Virus record (IMG/VR): IMGVR_UViG_3300030104_002375
Coordinates: 1 to 26,388 of that record
Source of the DNA: a virus
Reading direction: 5' to 3' (one strand)
DNA: 26,388 nt
The position numbers were made by a program, and so were the translations under genes. A model generated the notes under the pieces. It was given only the letters and a program-made list of their open reading frames with translations. It searched no databases and was not told the DNA's origin. Shown in pieces: positions 1,150 through 24,292 of this stretch; the first letter of the stretch is position 1, and every line of letters starts with the position of its first letter.

Positions 1150-1157
1150 TATTTAGC
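1150..1157 (-). promoter_or_regulatory. Weak late-promoter-like motif (GCTAAATA)
   Basis: The minus strand reads GCTAAATA across the stop codon of the Gly-rich fibre gene, about 20 bases before the nuclease ATG. It matches six of eight positions of TATAAATA. Because TAA is also the stop codon, part of the match is forced, so the site is weak. The nuclease gene has its own good ribosome binding site, so a separate transcript is possible. Confidence 0.25.
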
Positions 1158-4100
1158 AGACGGTTACACCGTATTCTATATCACCTGCAATCGTTCCATT
1201 ATTGGTTACTGATACCCCTGAAGTAGTACCACTTGAAGGTGTACCTTGACCTGTAGAAGGTGCAGTCCAACTAATTTGAGTATTAGCTTCTGCAAATGTA
1301 CCAGATGTAACGTTAACTACTAGATCATCACTACTAGATCCAGTACCTTGTCCTTGAACTGTTAGTTGACGTGGGTTAGTAGAATTAACTGAGTATCCAG
1401 TTGAGTTACCAGCCTGTCCAACATACACAGTACCTGGTGCAACTGTAGCAGGTACAGTTCCACTCATAGCACCTGTACCTGATGTAGTAGTATTAACAAC
1501 ACTTACTGTTAAGGCAGCGTTGTTATCATCACCATCCATATCATGTATACCTAGCGTCTTTGGATTAGCCAGCCCAGCTGGATTACCAGTAAGAATACCA
1601 TGAAGATATCTTTGAGATTTATACAGACCTTCGGGTTCATCATCCTCATTATATAACTGACCTGGTGTCCATGAGTTAGGATTATTAGGATCTGTCTGAT
1701 TATCATACTCATCTGGTGTGTCAGTCCAGACTCCAACTTCCCTATTTGGTGTTGGTTGATCACCAGTATTTAATGATGTTTTTAATACAGCACCAGAAGC
1801 ATTTTTAACTACAAATGCAACACCACCTGGATTTGCTGGCCATGTATTAGGGAATGAAGAAGAAGAATTATTACGAACTTTAACTGTTAATTTACGATTT
1901 CCAACAGGCTGGGAAGAAGTTGTAATATTATCAGAAGTAGTAGAATTACTCGTACTTCCTACTAAAGTGTCATCAATAAGATATTGTGCTTCATTATCAG
2001 CAGCAACTTCTAAAAATAATTGTCCACCATTGTGTGCAAAAACATAATCTGCTTCATGCCAAGTACCTAATAATGGGTTAGTAGTAGATGGGAACACAGC
2101 ATAGGTATTCATAAATGATCCCCATGCACCACTAGGATTTTGTGGGAAAGCATCACTTGATCTAGCAACTATACCTCCAGTTGCATCCTTTAATACCCAT
2201 GCAACACCAGCTGGATTCATATTCCAATTATTATTTCCATTACTACCATTGTTTATAGTTGCTGTTACCCAATAATCTCTAGTATCAGTTACGTTAATTG
2301 TATAATTTGTAGATGTATTATGTGGACCAGGTAAAGGACCAGAAGTAATAGTTCCTAATGTTGTTGTTGTATCCCATACAAATGTTGCTGTACCATCACA
2401 CTGACACTCAAGTGTATATGTTCCTGTACTTGAAAGATTAAATCTCCAAATACCAGTATGATTTTGATTTGCTAATACCTGAGTATTAGAAGGGAACATT
2501 GCATAGTCCTTCATAAACTGTGACCAACCTTGAGGATCAGTCAAATACCAACCAGAAGCACCTAGAGAAGACTTAACCCATGCAGATTGTGGACTCCATT
2601 TTAACCAATCAACTGTAATATCATCGTCTCCAATATCAGTATATCCTCCATCCTCATCCTCTTCAAATGTATGAAATGTACCAGTTAACTTAACTGTCAG
2701 CTCATGTGTACCAGGATTAGGTTTTACAACTGTCACACTAGCATTAGAACTACCAGTTTCTTGGTTCCATGTCATTGTGAACTTCTCATAAGTGGAAGAT
2801 ACACTACCACCCGTAGGTGATGTTAAGAAGACTTCTACAAAGTCACATGCTCTACCATCCTGTCCCAGCTGATCATTCCATGTCCATGCAAAGTTAAGAG
2901 TAGCAGTACCAGTACCAGTTAGATCAAGTTTAACATAACTATCATTTGTTGCTTGACCTTCTATTGGATCAGGATAACCAGATGAGAATGGACCAAATGC
3001 TCCAGATGTTAACCTAAAGTTTGCATCTATATCACCTACCCCAGCTGATGTACCAGTAGCAATACCGATTGTAAAGTTACTAGGTCCTGTGTCACTACCT
3101 ACCTTACTAAAGAATACAAATGGGTATTGGTCTGTATTAGTTCTTGTCCATGTAAATGTCTCTGTACTGTCTACGTCTGGAGTACCAGCAGTTCCTGTTA
3201 CTATTCTAACAGCATCACCACTTAATCCAGGATTACCACCTACTGTCTCCCATGCTCCACCATAAGATTCATTACCATCTCCTCCTCTTTGTGGTGCAGC
3301 ACTAGGATCTCCACCACGTCCACCATCTCCAGCATCTGTGCCATCACCTGATCCTCCAGCACCACCTAATCCAGCAGTCGTCTGCGATGAGTTATTGCCG
3401 TTCGATCCTGAGAATGTACCTCCACCGCCTGAACCACCCTGTCCAATCGGGAATCCAGCACCACCTCCTCCACCGCCTCCTCCAGCAGTGGGGTCATAAT
3501 CATTTTTGTCGGATGGGTCAACGGCTGAACGACCTCCTCCACCGCCACCTCCGTAGCCAGCTTGAATGTAACCATTGTTAACAACAGCAGATGGGTCATA
3601 CTCAACACCGAGTCCTGAAGTACCATTACTTCCTACGCCACCTGGAATTCCACCGTTACCACCACGTCCACCAGCACCAAAGATTCTACCCCCTGATCCT
3701 ACGTTCGTTTCTAATCTAGTATCATTATCCCAACTTCCAGTACGTACTGCACATATACAGTCATCACTACCACTGGCGGATCCTATAGTTTGATTTACAT
3801 GTATAAAGACCTTACATCCACTACTGGATGAAGGTTTCGATCTCCAACCTAAAACATCAACTTCCCCAGAATTATACTGGGATCTTCCATTTCTTCTAGT
3901 CGTATTATTATTTATTGGTCTCCATAAATCTGATATAATATTAAGTCTCTTTGCATAGAAATCAGAGAATCTGATTGCACCTGCTTGAGGAACACCCTGA
4001 TCCAGTGGCATGGAAGTCATACCACCATAACTCTTACTTACTCTATAGTTACCTAGTGAGACAGCAGTATTAGCAGATGGAAAACCAAATGCCCCTGAGT

Positions 4101-4170
4101 CTGCACTAGGTCCGAACTCAGTTCTTATATCTGATGCAGATATCTGTACACCTGACGACTGAAGTGCCAT
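1153..4170 (-). CDS. Gly-rich tail fibre / adhesin-like structural protein (1,005 aa)
   Basis: A large virion fibre or adhesin candidate. Residues 1-75 resemble the N-terminal segment seen on many marine phage structural proteins, ending GAIRFSDFYAKR. Residues about 159-318 are dominated by glycine, with runs of seven to eight Gly separated by short variable loops. This resembles the polyglycine-helix sandwich of T-even gp38-type receptor-binding tips. Residues about 528-790 hold tandem units of roughly 127 residues with shared WxxFMxxYAxFPS and GVAWVxKDA-type motifs, probably beta-sandwich domains. The C-terminal 200 residues are Thr/Ser/Gly-rich and Ig-like in pattern. Its ATG overlaps the stop of the preceding fibre gene as TAATG, so the two are coupled. 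The role in host recognition is inferred from architecture; I see no catalytic motif. Confidence 0.75.
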   Translation of the reverse strand: MALQSSGVQISASDIRTEFGPSADSGAFGFPSANTAVSLGNYRVSKSYGGMTSMPLDQGVPQAGAIRFSDFYAKRLNIISDLWRPINNNTTRRNGRSQYNSGEVDVLGWRSKPSSSSGCKVFIHVNQTIGSASGSDDCICAVRTGSWDNDTRLETNVGSGGRIFGAGGRGGNGGIPGGVGSNGTSGLGVEYDPSAVVNNGYIQAGYGGGGGGGRSAVDPSDKNDYDPTAGGGGGGGGAGFPIGQGGSGGGGTFSGSNGNNSSQTTAGLGGAGGSGDGTDAGDGGRGGDPSAAPQRGGDGNESYGGAWETVGGNPGLSGDAVRIVTGTAGTPDVDSTETFTWTRTNTDQYPFVFFSKVGSDTGPSNFTIGIATGTSAGVGDIDANFRLTSGAFGPFSSGYPDPIEGQATNDSYVKLDLTGTGTATLNFAWTWNDQLGQDGRACDFVEVFLTSPTGGSVSSTYEKFTMTWNQETGSSNASVTVVKPNPGTHELTVKLTGTFHTFEEDEDGGYTDIGDDDITVDWLKWSPQSAWVKSSLGASGWYLTDPQGWSQFMKDYAMFPSNTQVLANQNHTGIWRFNLSSTGTYTLECQCDGTATFVWDTTTTLGTITSGPLPGPHNTSTNYTINVTDTRDYWVTATINNGSNGNNNWNMNPAGVAWVLKDATGGIVARSSDAFPQNPSGAWGSFMNTYAVFPSTTNPLLGTWHEADYVFAHNGGQLFLEVAADNEAQYLIDDTLVGSTSNSTTSDNITTSSQPVGNRKLTVKVRNNSSSSFPNTWPANPGGVAFVVKNASGAVLKTSLNTGDQPTPNREVGVWTDTPDEYDNQTDPNNPNSWTPGQLYNEDDEPEGLYKSQRYLHGILTGNPAGLANPKTLGIHDMDGDDNNAALTVSVVNTTTSGTGAMSGTVPATVAPGTVYVGQAGNSTGYSVNSTNPRQLTVQGQGTGSSSDDLVVNVTSGTFAEANTQISWTAPSTGQGTPSSGTTSGVSVTNNGTIAGDIEYGVTVC
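1785..2590 (-). repeat. Tandem ~127-residue domain repeats inside the Gly-rich fibre gene
   Basis: Translated units begin near residues 528, 655 and 781 with AWVKSS, AWVLKDATGG and AFVVKNASGA. The first two contain WSQFMKDYAMFPS and WGSFMNTYAVFPS at matching places. The third is only an entry segment. The repeats are clear at protein level and much less so in DNA, which points to an old domain duplication, not recent slippage. Confidence 0.6.
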
Positions 4171-14870: not shown

Positions 14871-15139
14871 TAATCGTCATACACTCGACATTCCAGTGAA
14901 TCTGGATGGTTATCACAATACACTTCTAGGTGCTTATCTTCATGGCGTGTGTGCCAATCGTTTATCTTACCTTCATTAGGTACGACTTCTTCTTCTGTGT
15001 GATCATGGAATGCATCATTGTGCATTTCCAAATCCTTTTCAGAGTATTCAATCATGCCATGATTGACATGCTCCTTATGATCTTTGGGATCAATATAAAC
15101 CTCATGTTTGAGGTCATGTTTAGGGATTTCAGTTGTCAT
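14870..15139 (-). CDS. His-rich small protein between gp27-like and gp5
   Basis: An 89-residue, strongly charged protein with 12 histidines spread along its length (including HDH at 45-47 and HEDKH at 66-70), many Asp/Glu, and two Cys near the C-terminus. There is no membrane segment. No family is recognised. Both ends are locked into the operon: ATGA with the gp27-like stop and TAATG with gp5. It is therefore almost certainly a real gene, probably linked to hub assembly. Metal binding is suggested by composition only. Confidence 0.65.
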   Translation of the reverse strand: MTTEIPKHDLKHEVYIDPKDHKEHVNHGMIEYSEKDLEMHNDAFHDHTEEEVVPNEGKINDWHTRHEDKHLEVYCDNHPDSLECRVYDD

Positions 15140-16377
15140 TTAAGTTCTTCGTAAGAGTCTCGTACAAGCTCCAAAGCGGTCACTGCACCTTTTGATAGGA
15201 ATTTATGGGATAACCTAGTTATCATATAAGATCCCTTGGCAGGGCTACTACGAAAATCCGTAGCAGCTGTATTTAGCTTAGGTAGTTTACACGTTATCAT
15301 AGCACCTACTCTTAATTTTAGGTTAAGTGGAACCGTAATATTCAGGGTTTGCGAAAATAAGTTCGATAACCTAGAGACAGTCTGTGCTTGGTACTTAGTC
15401 ATATTCATAGATGCTGTCTCACCTTCGGGAGGTTCCTCGAATGCCATAGCACCTATGTCAACAAGACCTAACATTCTTCTACTAGGTGATGCTGCTATCT
15501 CTGGTATTGGTTCATCAGCACCCATAGTAGTATGCTCACCATCATCCCATGAGTATTCATGTAATGCAGGTAGTCTTGTTAATAAATCAAAGAATATATT
15601 AGTACTCTTATATGCACCATCTCGTAACTTTTTGAGTACATCATGGTTAGTAGTGAATATAGGTGGTGCTATAAGTTTAAAGTTAGTATCTGTATGGATA
15701 CTTTCACCATCCTCCCTATACTCATACTCAAACTCAGGTTCTTCCTTTAATATACTTTCAACACTCTTATAATGGTATCCATCCATATCTTCCCAAAATA
15801 AAAACCCTGCATGTCCCTTGGTTGTGGAATTCTCTGCCGTGTGTGGTATAGATCTATTACGTAACCATGCAATACAGTATAAAGGTTTCTTCATGTTACC
15901 CATGAAATGATAACCATTCAACGTTTGCTCTACATCAATCCTTTCTTCAGGAACCTGCATCACCTCCTTCAATATCTTTTCAACAGAATCACCTATGTTA
16001 CCCTTATACTTACCACTAACCCTAGTCATCTGATTATCATAGGTTCCTTTAGTCTCACCCTGTAAAGTATAGAACTCTCGTTTACCTTCTCTAAGATTAT
16101 TAGTAATATTAGATAGTATTAATGGGTTTGTATCTCCATATGTTATCTCACCTGTTTCATGTTCTATTTTAATATTAAGTCTACCACCTGATCTTATAGG
16201 TGTTAGATCCATAAATCCAATAGTATCCTGTATACCAATCTCCATATGAATACTTGGATCAAATATACTTTCATGATACTCTATGGTATTATGTTGCATC
16301 CTGATGTCAGTTGCCTGTACACCATCACCAGTATAGGTAAGATTCTTTAAACTAGCGTTCTGTAACCAATCAGCCAT
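15136..16377 (-). CDS. gp27-like baseplate hub protein
   Basis: A 413-residue protein (T4 gp27 has 391) with the hub-fold pattern shared by gp27, gp44 and gpD-type hubs: SGKYKGNIGDSVEKILKEV, a hydrophobic CIAWLRNRSIP segment, GFLFWEDMDGYHYKSVE, and a C-terminal beta domain ending ITRLSHKF. The hub trimer bridges the six-fold tube to the three-fold spike. The order hub, small protein, gp5, spike fits this. The ATG overlaps the sulfotransferase stop as TAATG. Sequence similarity to T4 gp27 is low, so the call combines motif, size and position. Confidence 0.8.
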   Translation of the reverse strand: MADWLQNASLKNLTYTGDGVQATDIRMQHNTIEYHESIFDPSIHMEIGIQDTIGFMDLTPIRSGGRLNIKIEHETGEITYGDTNPLILSNITNNLREGKREFYTLQGETKGTYDNQMTRVSGKYKGNIGDSVEKILKEVMQVPEERIDVEQTLNGYHFMGNMKKPLYCIAWLRNRSIPHTAENSTTKGHAGFLFWEDMDGYHYKSVESILKEEPEFEYEYREDGESIHTDTNFKLIAPPIFTTNHDVLKKLRDGAYKSTNIFFDLLTRLPALHEYSWDDGEHTTMGADEPIPEIAASPSRRMLGLVDIGAMAFEEPPEGETASMNMTKYQAQTVSRLSNLFSQTLNITVPLNLKLRVGAMITCKLPKLNTAATDFRSSPAKGSYMITRLSHKFLSKGAVTALELVRDSYEELK

Positions 16378-17207
16378 TATACTATACCAGTTTTTACAGT
16401 TTCATAGTACTGTTTATTCTCTTTATAAGGAACATCCCAGTCATCAGCATACCCATCTTCAAGACCAACTGATGAAGATGTTATGTTAAATTTACCCACT
16501 TTCCAAGATTTAGGAATATTTATACCCAAAAACTCATTTAATACAGTAGACAATACACCATCTTTATTATCAAAATCACCCATTTTAGCAATCATAGTCG
16601 GCCACTTTGATGAGAATTTTTTTACAAAGTCTTTATAGTTATTACATTCTTTATTATTAGGTGTACCTATAAAATTCCTTTTACATGATCTTAACCACGA
16701 AATAGAATCACGTAGACAAATAATAACTCTAATATCAAAATGTTCATCTAATTCAGACTTTACTATATCCAACTCTTCACTGGATAGAGCACCATTCATT
16801 AAAGAAAAATCCATTACAGGCACACTGTTTGGTGTAGATTCATGTAATCTCCGATAATCCTCCCAGTTCGGAAAACGATTAAGTCTATCAATTAAATCTG
16901 TGTAATCACCTACACTCAACCATGGTTTAGGATTCTTAGTATAATGTCTAATTCTACGCAAAATATGACTCAAGTAATCATCATAAGTTTCCCATCCATA
17001 CTTTTCCCAATCCCAAGGTTGGTTATAATGTTCTTTAGTCTCATTATTATAGTAGCTTTGATGTTCATTACCTCTTAAAATTCTTCTCCAATATTGAGGT
17101 TCTTTAAATAAAGGATAAACAGCATATGTTGGGTCACATAAACTATAGAATAATGAAGTTGTGCCAGATTTAGGATGTCCTGGACATACAGCAAGTATAG
17201 GTTTCAT
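16377..17207 (-). CDS. PAPS-dependent sulfotransferase inside the hub operon
   Basis: A 276-residue protein with the sulfotransferase signature. Residues 9-19 read PGHPKSGTTSL, the 5'-phosphosulfate loop that binds PAPS. KEP at 35-37 matches the KE(P/L)xYF acceptor-side segment of bacterial and HSST-like enzymes. VIICLRDSISWLRS (residues 161-174; R166, S168 or S170) matches the 3'-phosphate-binding strand and helix. The family moves sulfate from PAPS to sugar hydroxyls or amines, tyrosines or small molecules; the acceptor here is unknown. There is no signal peptide, so it acts in the cytoplasm. It lies between a tape-measure-like gene (ATGA) and the gp27-like hub (TAATG), fully integrated in the late operon. 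T4 has no counterpart. A virion-modification or host-surface role is inference. Confidence 0.8.
   Translation of the reverse strand: MKPILAVCPGHPKSGTTSLFYSLCDPTYAVYPLFKEPQYWRRILRGNEHQSYYNNETKEHYNQPWDWEKYGWETYDDYLSHILRRIRHYTKNPKPWLSVGDYTDLIDRLNRFPNWEDYRRLHESTPNSVPVMDFSLMNGALSSEELDIVKSELDEHFDIRVIICLRDSISWLRSCKRNFIGTPNNKECNNYKDFVKKFSSKWPTMIAKMGDFDNKDGVLSTVLNEFLGINIPKSWKVGKFNITSSSVGLEDGYADDWDVPYKENKQYYETVKTGIV
16517..16524 (-). promoter_or_regulatory. Exact late-promoter motif (TATAAATA) inside the sulfotransferase gene
   Basis: The minus strand reads TATAAATA within the sulfotransferase frame (codons for GINIP), 140 bases before the gp27-like ATG. It could be an internal late promoter for the downstream hub genes. 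Exact 8-mers of this kind are expected a few times by chance in 26 kb of AT-rich DNA, so confidence is low. Confidence 0.25.
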
Positions 17208-18469
17208 TGTGTCCTTGCCTGACGTATTATCTCAGTCCAACTTATAGTATTAGTATTTCTACCACCATAATATCCAGTTGAATTATTAATATTGTTAATT
17301 ACAACAGCATTACTATTACCATTAGGCACATTAAATGGTGTAACATTATTATTGACGACACTATCTAACTTCTTCTTTCTAGTAATAGTATTCTTAACAC
17401 TATTCCATAGATTGACACCAGACATAGTTTTAGATGCTATAACTGGTGCTTTAACTGCTACAGCAGCACTAGCACCTAAAGTTACAAGATCACCTACAAT
17501 AGATTGAGTCTTACCACCAACAGCAAAATCATCTATACCATTATCTACAAGTAGTGTTCTCTCACGTACTGTAAGTTCTTTATTAGTATTGACCTTCTCA
17601 ATAATCTTGGTTATCTCAGTTGTGTGGAATTCTTTTTCTGTTATATTATTCTCAGTTATAATATCTTTACCCTTTTCTACTATAGGAGTCTGTGGATCAA
17701 CTTTTTTTTCTTCCTGCGACTTTCCCTTATCCTCTTTCTTATCCTCCTTGGCAATAAGATTCTCCCAATTAACTAATCCCATCATCTCTACAGATTTACT
17801 GTAAAGAGTAAGGGAGTTGTCAAAATGATTTACTACAGGTTCTGGTTCAATCTTATCAACTACATCTTGTGAATTTTCCTCCCTACCCATCATCTTACGA
17901 TATAACTTTTTAACTGCTGCCTCACCTATAAGTCCACCAACAAGACCACCAACAAGTTCACCAGCAACCATCAAAGGTCCATCTGGTATAAAGAATCCCA
18001 ATCCAGCACCTATCTTTGCACCAGCCCAGAATCCACCACTACCAACAGCTGCTTCATCTACTGGTGTTCCTGACGCTACATCAAGACCAAAATTCAATAT
18101 ACCACCACCTACACCAACTCCCTTTGCCTTTGGAAGTTTGGTATTTTTAAGAACATCACCTGTAACCTTTACTTTAGGTGCTTTTCCTTTTTTAAATAAT
18201 CTACTAAACAAACCTGCACCAGCACCACCACCTAATATACCTAGCTGAGTAGATCCCCTTTTTATATCCTTACCAAGTTTACTTTGACTCTTACCAAGAG
18301 TCTCATATAGTTCCTTTTTCTCCTTAAATAAATTCTCTTTTAATACTATATTCTGTTTCAAATATCTATTATCAAGAAAGTTAGATCTACTATAAACATT
18401 GACTAACTTTGCAGTCTTAAACTTTATTGCTTCTGTTTTTGGTATTAACTTACTACTATCTATTGTCAT
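17204..18469 (-). CDS. Tape-measure-like or internal tail protein of unknown function
   Basis: A 421-residue protein. Residues 1-75 are a charged helical region. Residues about 75-190 hold Gly/Ala-rich hydrophobic stretches (LGILGGGAGAGLF, GELVGGLVGGLIGEAAV) that look able to enter a membrane. Residues about 200-300 are a Lys/Glu-rich linker or coiled coil, followed by a second Ala/Val-rich segment and an Asn-rich C-terminus. This layout is common in tape-measure and injected internal tail proteins. No T4 family match is evident by eye, although T4 gp28 or gp29 would be expected near here. The ATG overlaps the hydrolase stop (ATGA) and the 3' end overlaps the sulfotransferase (ATGA). Confidence 0.65.
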   Translation of the reverse strand: MTIDSSKLIPKTEAIKFKTAKLVNVYSRSNFLDNRYLKQNIVLKENLFKEKKELYETLGKSQSKLGKDIKRGSTQLGILGGGAGAGLFSRLFKKGKAPKVKVTGDVLKNTKLPKAKGVGVGGGILNFGLDVASGTPVDEAAVGSGGFWAGAKIGAGLGFFIPDGPLMVAGELVGGLVGGLIGEAAVKKLYRKMMGREENSQDVVDKIEPEPVVNHFDNSLTLYSKSVEMMGLVNWENLIAKEDKKEDKGKSQEEKKVDPQTPIVEKGKDIITENNITEKEFHTTEITKIIEKVNTNKELTVRERTLLVDNGIDDFAVGGKTQSIVGDLVTLGASAAVAVKAPVIASKTMSGVNLWNSVKNTITRKKKLDSVVNNNVTPFNVPNGNSNAVVINNINNSTGYYGGRNTNTISWTEIIRQARTQ

Positions 18470-19929
18470 GTGCCAGCACCTAATAATAGATTACAAGCAA
18501 ACTCATCTACTGATTTGAAATCAGGGAAGCATTGTAAACTTCCAGTGCCAGGTGAAGTAGGTGGTTCTGCATTTGTTGCAGTATTATTATTATCCTGTGA
18601 CAACATAGGAAGTATTGTATTATTTGTCTGGATCTTTGATGTCTCATCAGGATCCTGATTTATTGACATGAACTGTTGCCAGTTAGGTTGCTTCCATCCT
18701 TCAGGTTTTACTGCACCAGGTTGTTGCCACCAATAATGATAGAAGTTACCCTTCTCATCAAACATAGGGTCTTCTTTCTCAACTCTATTATGTAATTGAC
18801 TTTGACCTTTAAAATCTGTTCTACCTTCTAGTAATGCTAATGCACTTGCAATTTTATCCTGTCCTTCAATAGATGATAATTGCTTTTGTAATTTCTTATC
18901 ATGGAATGCACGTTCTTTAGTAACTGCCTCATATTGATTCTCTTGTAACACAACCTCCTTTATACTATTAGGGAAATGTTTTGATGATACCCTATTCAAG
19001 ATAGATGCTGCTACAGCATGCTCATCATCAGTACCCCTAGCAGCTTCTGCTGATACACCATATGCTAACCACTTATAATCTTCGTCACTTAAATTCAATT
19101 CTTGTGCATCTGTCATCGCACTAGCTAATATATTACCTTTATTAGTCAGTTTTATTAAAGGTACTAAAGCAGATTGAAACTGTTGATTTAATGTATCAAA
19201 TCTACTAAGATCTTTTTTATCAATACCAGTACCAGTAGAAGTTATTGGTTCTGATGCATTTGCTTTACCCATCTGAGATAGTCCTAGCAAACTTAAAAGT
19301 GCTAATGGTATTCCTATCTTAGGATTCTTTAGATGTTTCATCAATCCCATACCCTTACTCATACCAGCACCCTGAGTAACCTTTGTTGCTGTTTGAGCTC
19401 CACGACCACGTAATAAAGCACCTAAACCAAGACCACCTACAATACTACTTACTATATCAGCATTTGCTGCTCCAGCAAGTAAACTATTACCCAAAAATCC
19501 ACCAATATCACCTTTAAAAAGATTATCAAATGCTGCAAAACCTGCTACAGCACCAAATGCAATTCTAGAAATACTTAAACTTTTACTTGTTTCTTCTATA
19601 ACCTTCTTTTCTTCCTTTATAAGTTTACGTTCCTGTTGCATAAACCTACGTTTAGCAGACATGTCTCTTAATATAGTACCTCTTAAACTGTCAAGATTAT
19701 TATTAACCTGTTCAAATTCTAATGTTACCTTACCCAAATTCCTCAATATCTTCGGTGTCAATCCTTTATTATCTTCTATCTGTTGCTGCATCTTCTCCAA
19801 CTTTGCACCAGCAACGTCTAACCTTCTAACCAAAGGTTCAGTGGCAGTATTTTGACGTTCAGGTTCAGCCATCGGAAACATCCGAGACTTAGGCAATACA
19901 TCACCAGTATACTTTTTTCTTCTAGGCAT
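18466..19929 (-). CDS. Hub/tape-measure-like protein with SleB-type cell wall hydrolase domain
   Basis: A 487-residue protein. Residues 35-118 are coiled coil. Residues about 120-220 are hydrophobic Gly/Ala-rich helices (ISRIAFGAVAGFAAF, IVGGLGLGALL, IPLALLSLLGL). Residues about 285-405 are a Hydrolase_2 (SleB-like) domain: LAYGVSAEAARG with the candidate catalytic Glu295, HAVAASILNRV, FPNSIKEVV, NQYEAV and FYHYWW. SleB-type enzymes cleave peptidoglycan glycan strands as lytic transglycosylases. Because gp5 lacks lysozyme here, this protein probably opens the host wall during injection. The ATG overlaps the gp51-like gene by eight bases. Whether it is the tape measure or a hub plug cannot be told from sequence. 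Confidence 0.8.
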   Translation of the reverse strand: MPRRKKYTGDVLPKSRMFPMAEPERQNTATEPLVRRLDVAGAKLEKMQQQIEDNKGLTPKILRNLGKVTLEFEQVNNNLDSLRGTILRDMSAKRRFMQQERKLIKEEKKVIEETSKSLSISRIAFGAVAGFAAFDNLFKGDIGGFLGNSLLAGAANADIVSSIVGGLGLGALLRGRGAQTATKVTQGAGMSKGMGLMKHLKNPKIGIPLALLSLLGLSQMGKANASEPITSTGTGIDKKDLSRFDTLNQQFQSALVPLIKLTNKGNILASAMTDAQELNLSDEDYKWLAYGVSAEAARGTDDEHAVAASILNRVSSKHFPNSIKEVVLQENQYEAVTKERAFHDKKLQKQLSSIEGQDKIASALALLEGRTDFKGQSQLHNRVEKEDPMFDEKGNFYHYWWQQPGAVKPEGWKQPNWQQFMSINQDPDETSKIQTNNTILPMLSQDNNNTATNAEPPTSPGTGSLQCFPDFKSVDEFACNLLLGAGT

Positions 19930-20853: not shown

Positions 20854-21840
20854 TTAGTTCTCTGGAACTAATGGTAATCCTAATGACTGTCTAAGTCCAT
20901 TTGCTCTTGGATCACCTACCATTGCATCAAGTGTTGCTTGTTGTTGCTCAGTTATTTTTATTTGTTTTTGTTTTTCAGTAATCTTCTCTACTGACCTAGT
21001 TACATTCTCATCAGATTCAATAACTTGTCTAGTTCCATCCTCATGAATAAGTGTCATAGTTACTTCACCTGTAGGTAACTCACCTTGACGATATAAAACT
21101 CCCGTTCTATCTGTATAATATGTCTCATAGTTAAAGGTAACAGATGTTTTAAGCAACTCAGCATCCCCATATGCTAGTGGTGAAGCAACAACACTAACTG
21201 GAAATGCATTCATTAAATTATATTGAATACTATTTGGAACTTCTACATAACCATTCTTATATAATCTATCCCACTTACTCACAACATCCCTTGTAAATGC
21301 TGTTATCTTCATATTACACTTATATGTTTTGGGATATTTCATCCTCCTATATGCAAAAATATCATCCATTCTTTCCTTAGTACTTTCACCAGATCTACTG
21401 GTGCTATGAATATTTGTTGGGGAAATATATTCAGTCCATGCATTAAAAACATCATTAGTGAAGTAATCCCTTTGAGAATAAAATGTCAATGTCACATCAG
21501 GAAATGTTCTATATGATGCATATCCCTGTGCTATTCCCTGCCTAAGACCCCTAACTGAACTGACTTCTATATTAGTTGATGGTAATACTGCTTCAGAGCA
21601 AAATAATGCCAAATAATCACCAGGATTCTTTGTCATATTACTACTATTCATAGCATACGTATTGATAAACTCTGCTAAAGAGTTATCATTGCCATTATCA
21701 TTAAATGCACTATTAAAATCTATCCACACATCATATACATTATTAAATGCTGGTACTACACCAGACTCAGTACCTACTGTCCAAAGTTGATTGGTAGGTA
21801 TTCTAAATCTTTCTCCAGCAAATAGTTCCTTCCCAGCCAT
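20854..21840 (-). CDS. gp54: gp54-like baseplate tail tube initiator
   Basis: A 328-residue protein (T4 gp54 has 320). The C-terminal half shows the tail-tube-like fold signature FPVSVVASPLAYGDAELLKTSVTFNYETYY, shared by gp54, gp48 and gp19. The N-terminal half has GLRQGIAQGYASYRTFPDVTLTFYS. gp54 sits on gp48 at the top of the hub and starts polymerisation of the tube. A helical Gln/Lys-rich tail follows. It is the first gene of the minus-strand operon, divergent from gp4 across a 34-base gap. gp48, its usual direct neighbour in T4, is here on the opposite strand. Confidence 0.82.
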   Translation of the reverse strand: MAGKELFAGERFRIPTNQLWTVGTESGVVPAFNNVYDVWIDFNSAFNDNGNDNSLAEFINTYAMNSSNMTKNPGDYLALFCSEAVLPSTNIEVSSVRGLRQGIAQGYASYRTFPDVTLTFYSQRDYFTNDVFNAWTEYISPTNIHSTSRSGESTKERMDDIFAYRRMKYPKTYKCNMKITAFTRDVVSKWDRLYKNGYVEVPNSIQYNLMNAFPVSVVASPLAYGDAELLKTSVTFNYETYYTDRTGVLYRQGELPTGEVTMTLIHEDGTRQVIESDENVTRSVEKITEKQKQIKITEQQQATLDAMVGDPRANGLRQSLGLPLVPEN

Positions 21841-22312: not shown

Positions 22313-22727
22313 CAACCTACCAAACTCAAAACTTGTCACATCACCTGAAATAGGACATCTTGTCATGTTTAGGTATAAGGCAAAACTTGCAGATAAGATA
22401 GTATATGACAAAACACCTTGCCTATACGTTGCTATAGATGCTGGTGGGTTCTTTTATGGATGTAATTTACATTATTATCCAATGAATGCAAGAAAGGATA
22501 TATTAGAAACAATAGATGGATTAAGGGAAAGTGCCGATCCTGAATGGGATAGATTTATGTTTGGTAGCAGTGGGTTCCATAAATACTTGAAATCAGAAGT
22601 AGAATCACCATTTCTGGATATTCCAATGGAAGAATGGGAACTAGCAATTTCTTTACCAACAGAAGATTTCGTAAGAACTTTTCGTGGAACGGAAGTTCCT
22701 GTGTCAAATAGGAGTATGTGGAAATGA
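22299..22727 (+). CDS. Hypothetical protein between gp4 and gp48, likely TTG start
   Basis: A 142-residue soluble protein with an SH3-like or barrel-like start (GHLVMFRYKAKLADK...PCLYVAIDAGGFFYGCNLHYYP) and a helical, acidic C-terminal half. No confident family. In this frame a stop at 22284 leaves no ATG before 22365. The TTG at 22299 therefore seems to be the start, keeping the N-terminal segment and giving a 14-base overlap with gp4. It ends in an ATGA overlap with gp48. The position suggests a tail or head-tail assembly role. Confidence 0.65.
   Translation: MELTSNLPNSKLVTSPEIGHLVMFRYKAKLADKIVYDKTPCLYVAIDAGGFFYGCNLHYYPMNARKDILETIDGLRESADPEWDRFMFGSSGFHKYLKSEVESPFLDIPMEEWELAISLPTEDFVRTFRGTEVPVSNRSMWK
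22710..22714 (+). promoter_or_regulatory. Ribosome binding site deciding the gp48 start
   Basis: AGGAG lies nine bases before the ATG at 22724 and only three before the alternative in-frame GTG at 22718. It also precedes an out-of-frame ATG at 22716 that stops after three codons. Together with the ATGA overlap it favours 22724. Confidence 0.55.
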
Positions 22728-24292
22728 GTAATAAAGTTAAATCATATTCATTCCCTACTGCTGGTTCTTCAGAAAATTTTGAAGTAACTTTAGAAGGATT
22801 TAAGTATCAAGTAGTATACAATACCAATCCAAATAGTAACAATTTCCTCAATATAATCTCAGTTAAAAAAAGAAGTGGTTTGTCTTGGGAACCTGTAGGA
22901 CCTACAATAGAAGGACTGGTAAAAAATGATGAAGCTACAAAATTAGAATTTACTAAAAAACTAGCAGTACATAAATTAGGAGTAAATCAGGCTGGAGAAC
23001 CTTGGATAACTCACGCTGCAAATGCAGCCGATATATCAGGTAATGGAGAATTGTGGGCTAACGTACCAACAATAGAAAGCTTCTATTTACCGAATGGTCA
23101 AAAATCAACAAGTCTTATAACTGAAGGATTAGATCTAACAAAAACAGTTAAGGTTAATTCTAATTTTGAAACAGACCTTAATGTAGAAACAGAAACTACT
23201 TTGGGTGAAGTAAAAAAAGTACCATCTATTGAAAATGCATCTAATTTAAGTTATCCATTAAATGCTTATAAAAGCGAGATTAATGTACAAGATCATATAA
23301 TAATAGAAGCATTTAAGTATAGAGCACCTCAAGAGCAATTGGCTCCTGTCCTTCAAGGTAACTGGGATGCGATGTCAACCCTTAAAGAACCAGATGGAAA
23401 AAAGGGAGCAGAAAGTTTTGTTAAAAGTGTAACTAAAGGTTTACCTAGAAATAGTAATATACAACAATACCATGGTTTAGTTAAATTACCAATACCTAAT
23501 GAATTACAAATGTCTAACGGCATTTCGTGGGGTGATGAAAGTGCTAATGCATTTACTACTGCTGCGTTCTTAGGTGCAACAAACACAATTAGGCAAAAGG
23601 GTACAGATCCATTTGCCCTTCTTAAAGCTGGAGCAACTGGTACTAGAGATATAGTATCTGGTTTAACGAATGGGCAAGGAAATAATGAAGACTTCAAAAC
23701 GCTTGCAAGTGCATTTGGAGCACAATTTGCACTAGGTAGTATTGGTATAAATGTAGATCCAGGACAAATGATCACACGTGCTACTGGTAAGGCAATAAAC
23801 CCTAATTTAGAACTACTATTCAATGGTCCTAAGTTAAGGAATTTCTCATTTAACTTCTTATTTGCACCAAATGATACAAATGAAGCATCTGAAGTACGAA
23901 AGATTCAAAAGTTCTTGAAGAAATGTATGTCTCCATCAAGAAGTAGTGGAAATAGACTATTCATAGATACTCCAGACGTATTCAGAATACGTTTTAGAAG
24001 TGGTAGTGACAGAATAGGTGGTGTTGGTATGATAAAGATATGTGCTATGACTAAATGTGCAATAAACTATAGTCCTGAAAACACATGGATGTCATACAGT
24101 GATAAAAATGCAGGTGCTATGCCAGTAAGAAGTAACATGACTTGTGATTTTACTGAATTAACACCTATATTCCAAGATCATTATGAGAAGGATGTATGGG
24201 GCGATGATCAACAATTTGCAGATCTAAGAGACCTTCAAGTTCCTAATGGTGCAAATGCTTTCCAAGAAAATACCGATGATGTAGGATTCTAA
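22724..24292 (+). CDS. gp48: gp48-like baseplate tail tube cap
   Basis: A 522-residue protein, longer than T4 gp48 (364). The family part is the C-terminal third: LLFNGPKLRNFSFNFLFAP, DTNEASEVRKIQKFLKK, DVFRIRFR, INYSPENTWMSY and MTCDFTELTPIFQDHY. This is the tube-like fold that caps the hub and receives gp54. The extra N-terminal 200 residues contain a beta-rich segment, and the middle has Gly/Ala-rich helices. The start at 22724 is chosen for the ATGA overlap and AGGAG spacing. gp53 follows with a TAATG overlap. Confidence 0.82.
   Translation: MSNKVKSYSFPTAGSSENFEVTLEGFKYQVVYNTNPNSNNFLNIISVKKRSGLSWEPVGPTIEGLVKNDEATKLEFTKKLAVHKLGVNQAGEPWITHAANAADISGNGELWANVPTIESFYLPNGQKSTSLITEGLDLTKTVKVNSNFETDLNVETETTLGEVKKVPSIENASNLSYPLNAYKSEINVQDHIIIEAFKYRAPQEQLAPVLQGNWDAMSTLKEPDGKKGAESFVKSVTKGLPRNSNIQQYHGLVKLPIPNELQMSNGISWGDESANAFTTAAFLGATNTIRQKGTDPFALLKAGATGTRDIVSGLTNGQGNNEDFKTLASAFGAQFALGSIGINVDPGQMITRATGKAINPNLELLFNGPKLRNFSFNFLFAPNDTNEASEVRKIQKFLKKCMSPSRSSGNRLFIDTPDVFRIRFRSGSDRIGGVGMIKICAMTKCAINYSPENTWMSYSDKNAGAMPVRSNMTCDFTELTPIFQDHYEKDVWGDDQQFADLRDLQVPNGANAFQENTDDVGF

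Follow-up and report, generated by a model that had tools for sequence, protein, structure and literature searches.

What is the gene of a putative sulfotransferase (ST) doing in the middle of a phage tail operon, and what would its product modify? The stretch of DNA analysed here, an IMG/VR record 26,388 bases long to which we refer as the window, carries such a gene on the minus strand at 17207-16377, a complete open reading frame of 276 aa with an ATG start. The first-pass annotation had described a complete-looking frame at 16377-17207, with no mention of strand, lying between a tape-measure-like gene and a gp27-like hub gene and joined to them by ATGA and TAATG overlaps, and all of this is borne out. 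The upstream junction reads ...ACAATGAAACC, where the ST ATG overlaps the TGA of the gene in the T4-GC14 position, which stops at 17204. The downstream junction reads ...GTATAATGGCT, where the stop codon TAA of the ST shares a base with the ATG at which the gp27-like gene begins (16377). From upstream to downstream, the features discussed below are:

17204-18469, minus strand: upstream neighbour in the T4-GC14 position, tape-measure-like, with a glycine zipper; shares ATGA with the ST gene
16377-17207, minus strand: ST gene, 276 aa, hypervariable allele (open reading frame, profile search, fold, allele divergence)
17151-17174, minus strand: 5'-phosphosulfate-binding (PSB) loop PKSGTTSL, residues 12-19, invariant in the hub alleles and nearly so in 12 relatives
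16914-17138, minus strand: variable stretch, residues 24-98 without the conserved K35-R45 helix, with the highest amino-acid divergence between alleles
17100-17105, minus strand: K35-E36, invariant in 12 of 12 aligned relatives; E36 is a candidate catalytic base by analogy with 3-O-sulfotransferases
16803-16811, minus strand: DFS, residues 133-135, D133 and F134 invariant in the alignment of relatives
16686-16712, minus strand: putative 3'-phosphate-binding segment R166...S174 (RDSISWLRS), from the alignment and the PDB profile search
16614-16673, minus strand: loop of variable sequence (residues 179-198) in which alleles differ by in-frame indels
15136-16377, minus strand: downstream neighbour, gp27-like hub/tail protein (T4-GC15); shares TAATG with the ST gene

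The product of the upstream neighbour has only weak matches to tape-measure families, that of 18466-19929 possesses a cell-wall-hydrolase domain, and that of 15136-16377 is a phrog_350 tail protein in the gp27/T4-GC15 position. Gene order in the window (gp48-like, GC8, gp4, tube, gp26, gp51, GC13, GC14, GC15, gp5) is that of the T4 cyanophage P-SSM2. This arrangement suggests late translation of the ST as part of the tail operon, coupled to that of T4-GC14. Near-identical to the window is Marine virus AG-345-D19, from a single-particle study (PMC6122165) in which its plate belonged to the extracellular sort gate. This relative has about 173 kb of contigs and a psbA gene, and its gp17 is 80% identical to that of Synechococcus phage S-BM3. 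The P-SSM2 gene order in the window, together with the cyanophage-like terminase and psbA in the relative, places the virus in a T4-like cyanophage (Kyanoviridae-like) setting. Since AG-345-D19 carries psbA, a marine picocyanobacterium is the most likely host.

The motifs by which the gene had been recognized, the PKSGTTSL loop (residues 12-19), the KEP segment (35-37) and VIICLRDSISWLRS, are all found in the translation. In an alignment of 12 phage relatives, taken among the matches listed in a motif scan of viral contigs (more relatives are probable), T16, L19, K35, E36, Y118, D133, F134, R166 and F226 are kept in all 12, while S14, G15, T17, S18, S135, S174 and Y191 are nearly invariant. 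The 3'-phosphate segment has an Arg and a Ser eight residues apart past the central strand (R166 invariant, S174 nearly so in these relatives) and aligns to 3rnl and 3bd9 in a profile search against PDB. All 15 motif residues are invariant in the five hub alleles although only 132 of the 276 positions are (P = 1e-5).

The case from established motifs, on which the first-pass annotation had relied, is weaker than it appeared. Pfam Sulfotransfer_4 (PF17784) and Sulfotransfer_3 (PF13469) have in common with the phage family, in the same order, a PSB loop, a K-E pair, a DFS-type segment and an R...S 3'-phosphate segment, but each phage-family member tested scores under the curated cut-offs: against Sulfotransfer_4 the window protein reaches 18.9 bits and the other hub alleles 15.2-21.5 bits, where 22.8 are required. 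No model of PHROGs (E ≤ 0.1), NCBIfam or PADLOC (both ≤ 0.01) matches the window ST. The assignment to the family nevertheless holds by profile and fold. With the 12-member profile nearly only sulfotransferases are found in PDB (24 of 26 matches), the best being 3rnl (1.8e-6), followed by heparan sulfate 3-O-sulfotransferases (3-OSTs) 5 (6.9e-5), 3 and 1. An AF2 model built from the 12-member alignment has a mean pLDDT of only 68.3 and a pTM of 0.68 (C-terminal residues 240-276, with pLDDT < 50, were left uninterpreted; a model from four hub alleles alone, pLDDT 34.5, was not used). Its two best fold matches are sulfotransferase domains, that of the Synechococcus PCC 7002 olefin synthase (4gox, Z 12.2 over 205 residues) and that of CurM (4gbm, Z 11.6), while 3-OSTs and TPSTs follow at about Z 10 and P-loop kinases reach up to 10.6, below the top two; Foldseek alone ranks P-loop kinases and GTPases alongside sulfotransferases and does not separate them. 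Taken together, the profile, the model and the motifs make it very probable that the gene belongs, as a divergent member with putative activity, to the PAPS-type sulfotransferase family.

The known enzymes that are nearest to it differ in instructive ways. In 3-OSTs the catalytic Glu sits where the window ST has its K-E motif. Identity to the 3-OSTs is only about 13-15%, and the region of the window ST equivalent to their acceptor cleft is unrelated and hypervariable. The olefin synthase and CurM domains, matched over about 200 residues, are parts of polyketide synthases and act on carrier-bound intermediates, whereas the window ST is free-standing and located in a virion operon. Among the nearest solved structures, enzymes acting on proteins (TPST), on small molecules (olefin synthase, CurM) and on glycans are all represented, which counts against a firm choice of acceptor.

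Relative to the window allele, the ST protein is 71% identical in AG-345-D19, 70-71% in the viral-collection contigs L003 and L004, and 63-64% in L006, where neighbouring proteins are mostly 97-100% identical. Nucleotide identity is 98-99% outside the ST gene, falls to as low as 63-78% inside it and rises again at the gene edges, where the change is sharp. Divergence is concentrated between the motifs, in residues 24-34, 46-129 and 179-198, so that the variable sites appear, judged from sequence motifs, to lie outside the PAPS site. Nei-Gojobori dN/dS against the window allele is 1.85 for AG-345-D19 and 1.44, 1.58 and 0.99 for the others. By bootstrap, a test independent of any tree, dN exceeds dS significantly in two of ten pairs (window and AG-345-D19, P = 0.004; window and L004, P = 0.024). 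One-ratio values of the flanking genes are low (gp27 0.16, gp26 0.19, GC13 0.34, GC14 0.36), while that of the ST is 0.78 (M0), not different from 1 (lnL -2668.4 vs -2669.6). In our own implementation of the site models, applied to the five hub-site alleles, M2a is preferred over M1a for the ST with 2dlnL = 63.7, about 20% of codons having w about 7.9 and 35% having 0.02; its P-value is not to be taken literally, as the model assumes one tree and the evident recombination can inflate the result. Residues with high w are 25, 27, 50, 60, 69, 70, 75, 77, 83, 84, 120, 126, 129, 142, 168, 185-197 and 247-249. The controls gp27 and gp26 give no signal and GC13 and GC14 little.

A one-ratio value close to 1 could be attributed to relaxed constraint, i.e. 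the ST could be passive cargo drifting freely in a recombination hotspot, and the known hypervariability of the gp17|gp18 interval (PMC3037559), where sister genes of the ST are found (see below), would suit such an origin. We nevertheless regard this explanation as very improbable. All seven alleles are open, every indel has a length divisible by three, and there is no stop among the 115-185 differences per pair, although 6.2% of random changes would create one, which under drift has a probability of 6e-4 to 7e-6 per pair. Motif residues are fixed, and about a third of codons are at w about 0.02. Decay as the cause of the divergence is ruled out by the same lack of stops, the in-frame indels and the 15 of 15 fixed co-factor residues. 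These observations support an ST that is complete and apparently in use. Diversifying selection is most likely acting on it outside the co-factor site, and a fixed co-factor part beside a renewed remainder suggests an acceptor that changes. Such fast change around a frozen co-factor pocket suggests an arms race over the molecule that is modified.

Alleles of the ST also do not follow the genomes in which they reside. In the ST tree AG-345-D19 pairs with L003 (94% identity), while surrounding GC13 pairs L003 with L004, and the best ST tree forced to contain the L003 and L004 pair is rejected (AU P = 0.008). The first and the last 30-50 bp or so of the hub ST gene are nearly invariant in DNA and could provide the homology for such an exchange. 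A second instance was observed at the gp17|gp18 site of two phages: the flanks there have dS of 0.79 and 0.38, while the ST has dS of 0.06 and dN of 0.08 (dN/dS 1.29, not significant alone, P = 0.23). Such low ST divergence between strongly diverged flanks indicates a recent exchange of the ST between diverged backbones. Most likely, recombination in well-conserved flanks moves ST alleles between genomes as a cassette.

Exchange and diversifying selection are typical of counter-defence genes, and the ST could accordingly be a counter-defence or signalling enzyme whose target, which sulfation would disarm, is a defence protein of the host, a nucleotide-like signal or a toxic small molecule, with the arms race driving dN/dS. 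Related folds do act on small molecules and proteins. However, placement in a late operon is late for counter-defence, no PADLOC model matches the protein and no defence-like neighbours were seen, and we consider this role unlikely. Less likely still is an auxiliary metabolic gene, sulfating a host lipid or metabolite and altering physiology with no relation to surface recognition. Surveys do place the sulfotransferases of phages among auxiliary genes related to sulfur (PMC13079714, PMC12285232), and the best fold match is the olefin synthase domain of Synechococcus, but a constant substrate predicts purifying selection, while amino-acid change in the ST proceeds at a rate at least as high as silent change.

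The gene at the hub junction was found in five genomes only, the window, L003, L004 and L006 from the viral collection and AG-345-D19 from phage records; the latter is the single full-length relative of the window protein in a tblastn search of 50,697 phage records. Among 78 contigs bearing gp27 (identity 29-44%), several of them near-identical to each other, the ST is absent from the hub junction in all 77 with a readable upstream gene, and GC14 directly adjoins gp27 there. Neither P-SSM2 nor DSL-LC03 nor the 172-kb contig G007 has an ST at this junction. A sister clade lies between gp17 and gp18 in two contigs among the matches listed, also with an ATGA junction, and support for the grouping of hub and gp17|gp18 STs is 100/100; AG-345-D19 itself (L101) has no ORF between gp17 and gp18, only a 57-bp gap. 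More distant relatives occupy further slots. In L135 the ST follows a fibre-like gene beside ORFs that are probably of 2OG-oxygenase type, named by sequence appearance, and in L236-L239 it lies near gp25/gp6 with carbamoyltransferase-like and SGNH-like ORFs. In L236, L238 and L239 several paralogous SGNH-like ORFs (MHYNLLFNGCSxTxGSELEG) are clustered with sulfotransferases; the L236 and L238 clusters contain carbamoyltransferase-like ORFs and adjoin baseplate wedge genes, and that of L239 contains radical-SAM-like ORFs. A scan of genome contigs for a cellular donor of the ST returned a 33-residue fragment of similarity and no donor.

This distribution bears on two claims of the first-pass annotation. 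The tight integration of the gene had been held to argue against recent insertion, which does not agree with its confinement to one lineage at the hub site (0 of 77 relatives) or with the swapping of its alleles between backbones. A role tied to the hub is likewise hard to reconcile with a sister clade between gp17 and gp18 in related phages, and the stable, hub-linked virion function originally proposed is weakened. In relatives the gene was found in several late-gene slots, which goes part of the way towards the random placement that the first-pass annotation had named as a refutation. The sister STs lie at exactly the site of the gp17-gp18 hypervariable cassettes (Millard 2009 / Sullivan 2010, PMC3037559) and are exchanged as cassettes in the same manner, whereas the window ST is at the T4-GC14|T4-GC15 hub junction, which the available part of PMC3037559 does not name as a mobile site.

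Other tail genes in these genomes are variable too. The C-terminal ~100 aa of the tail-tube-like protein at 20854-21840 (about 20854-21150) are swapped between near-identical genomes, with one type in the window and L006, another in L002 and a third in L003/L004; the site-model signal of the tail tube (2dlnL 38.8) is driven by this swapped part. In the gp48-like tube-cap gene (22718-24292) the last ~150 aa are about 35% identical in L003/L004, where neighbours are 96-99% identical, and between the window and AG-345-D19 its dN of 0.042 exceeds its dS of 0.019. The window also encodes a glycine-rich fibre/adhesin-like protein of 1005 aa (1153-4170), of which AG-345-D19 has a 698-aa version, about 300 aa being present or absent.

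Such tail variation, together with the hub-operon position, the translational coupling, sister genes that are also placed in late virion operons or after fibres, and TPSTs among the fold matches, would suit a virion-modifying enzyme, which during assembly would sulfate a protein of the tail, baseplate or fibre, either at Tyr/Ser or on a glycan that it bears. ST alleles do not, however, co-vary with the C-terminus that varies in the tail tube (r = -0.15), the window and AG-345-D19 share about 97% identity in their fibres where the ST differs by 29%, and the same subfamily occurs at unrelated slots (gp17|gp18) where proximity to the hub is not kept. We consider a virion target about as improbable as the counter-defence role. 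The first-pass annotation had left the choice between a virion part and a surface sugar; the surface sugar is the better reading, and the virion part is disfavoured by these comparisons.

Further indications come from the other sulfotransferase-like genes of AG-345-D19, of which there are up to six. Three are tandem overlapping ORFs (L098, 8562-10654), the last of which ends at the contig edge, and they directly follow a large fibre-like gene with GDVTGD repeats. Others are found in L097, L013 and L012 (323 aa, 403 aa and 280 aa). The three L098 ORFs and L012:11200 are termed sulfotransferase-like only because they resemble each other and look like P-loop proteins; none has a Pfam match. Adjoining the genes in L097, L013 and L012 are those of a CMP-sugar-type cytidylyltransferase, a carbamoyltransferase, a methyltransferase and SGNH-like proteins, and at the end of the window (about 193-663) lies a cytidylyltransferase-like gene (PF01467, 4.2e-10), which may serve to make an activated sugar or polyol. 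A search of 14 records of relatives gave no APS kinase, so that PAPS would come from the host.

The starting point for any proposal is what can be read directly from the sequence, i.e. the enzyme family, the operon position, the restriction to one lineage, the exchange of alleles and a surplus of amino-acid change beside a co-factor site that is frozen. We tentatively favour, as quite possible though far from assured, a recombination-shuffled, PAPS-dependent ST that sulfates a variable acceptor, most likely a cyanobacterial surface glycan. A phage ST of the Sulfotransfer_1/3/4 superfamily would be made late from the tail operon, coupled to T4-GC14, and draw PAPS from the host. It would move sulfate onto an acceptor that differs between host strains, probably a hydroxyl of LPS or EPS at the cell surface, or of a precursor of these glycans. 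Cyanophages use the LPS of cyanobacteria as a receptor, and sulfate is common in cyanobacterial EPS (PMC4390846). A surface altered so late may keep progeny from adsorbing again to the dying cell or to what is left of it, or keep rivals from superinfecting. With an acceptor that varies, diversification would fall on the ST outside its PAPS site, and its alleles would be swapped as a cassette through conserved flanks. Surface glycans are favoured over virion proteins by the sugar-type neighbours of the other ST-like genes and the cytidylyltransferase-like gene of the window, and also by the fact that the ST allele tracks neither the tail-tube C-terminus nor the fibre; the position among virion genes would equally suit a virion target. 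A wider version, which we hold to be unlikely, is a multi-copy sulfation system with up to seven ST-like genes per phage, which would re-code host surface glycans strain by strain and of which the hub copy would be the fast-evolving specificity component.

In the literature searched we found no study of the function of a phage-encoded sulfotransferase. In marine surveys the function of phage sulfotransferases, for example those of OM43 phages, is stated to be unclear (PMC10580990); the surveyed genes are likewise phage-borne but are single occurrences by domain annotation, while for the window ST selection and exchange are supported at the level of alleles. The main interest of the locus goes beyond the view of the first-pass annotation and lies in an enzyme that is shuffled and evolves fast inside a tail operon which is conserved otherwise. 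With a series of alleles in which the co-factor site is frozen and the remainder changes fast, it becomes a testable question which variable host or virion molecule is modified. If the acceptor is a surface glycan, the ST would be a sulfate analogue of serotype conversion in abundant lytic viruses of the ocean, and would bear on the strain diversity of cyanobacteria; if the multi-copy reading is true, the whole set of genes would give lytic marine viruses, by means of sulfate, a counterpart of the serotype conversion brought about by phages.
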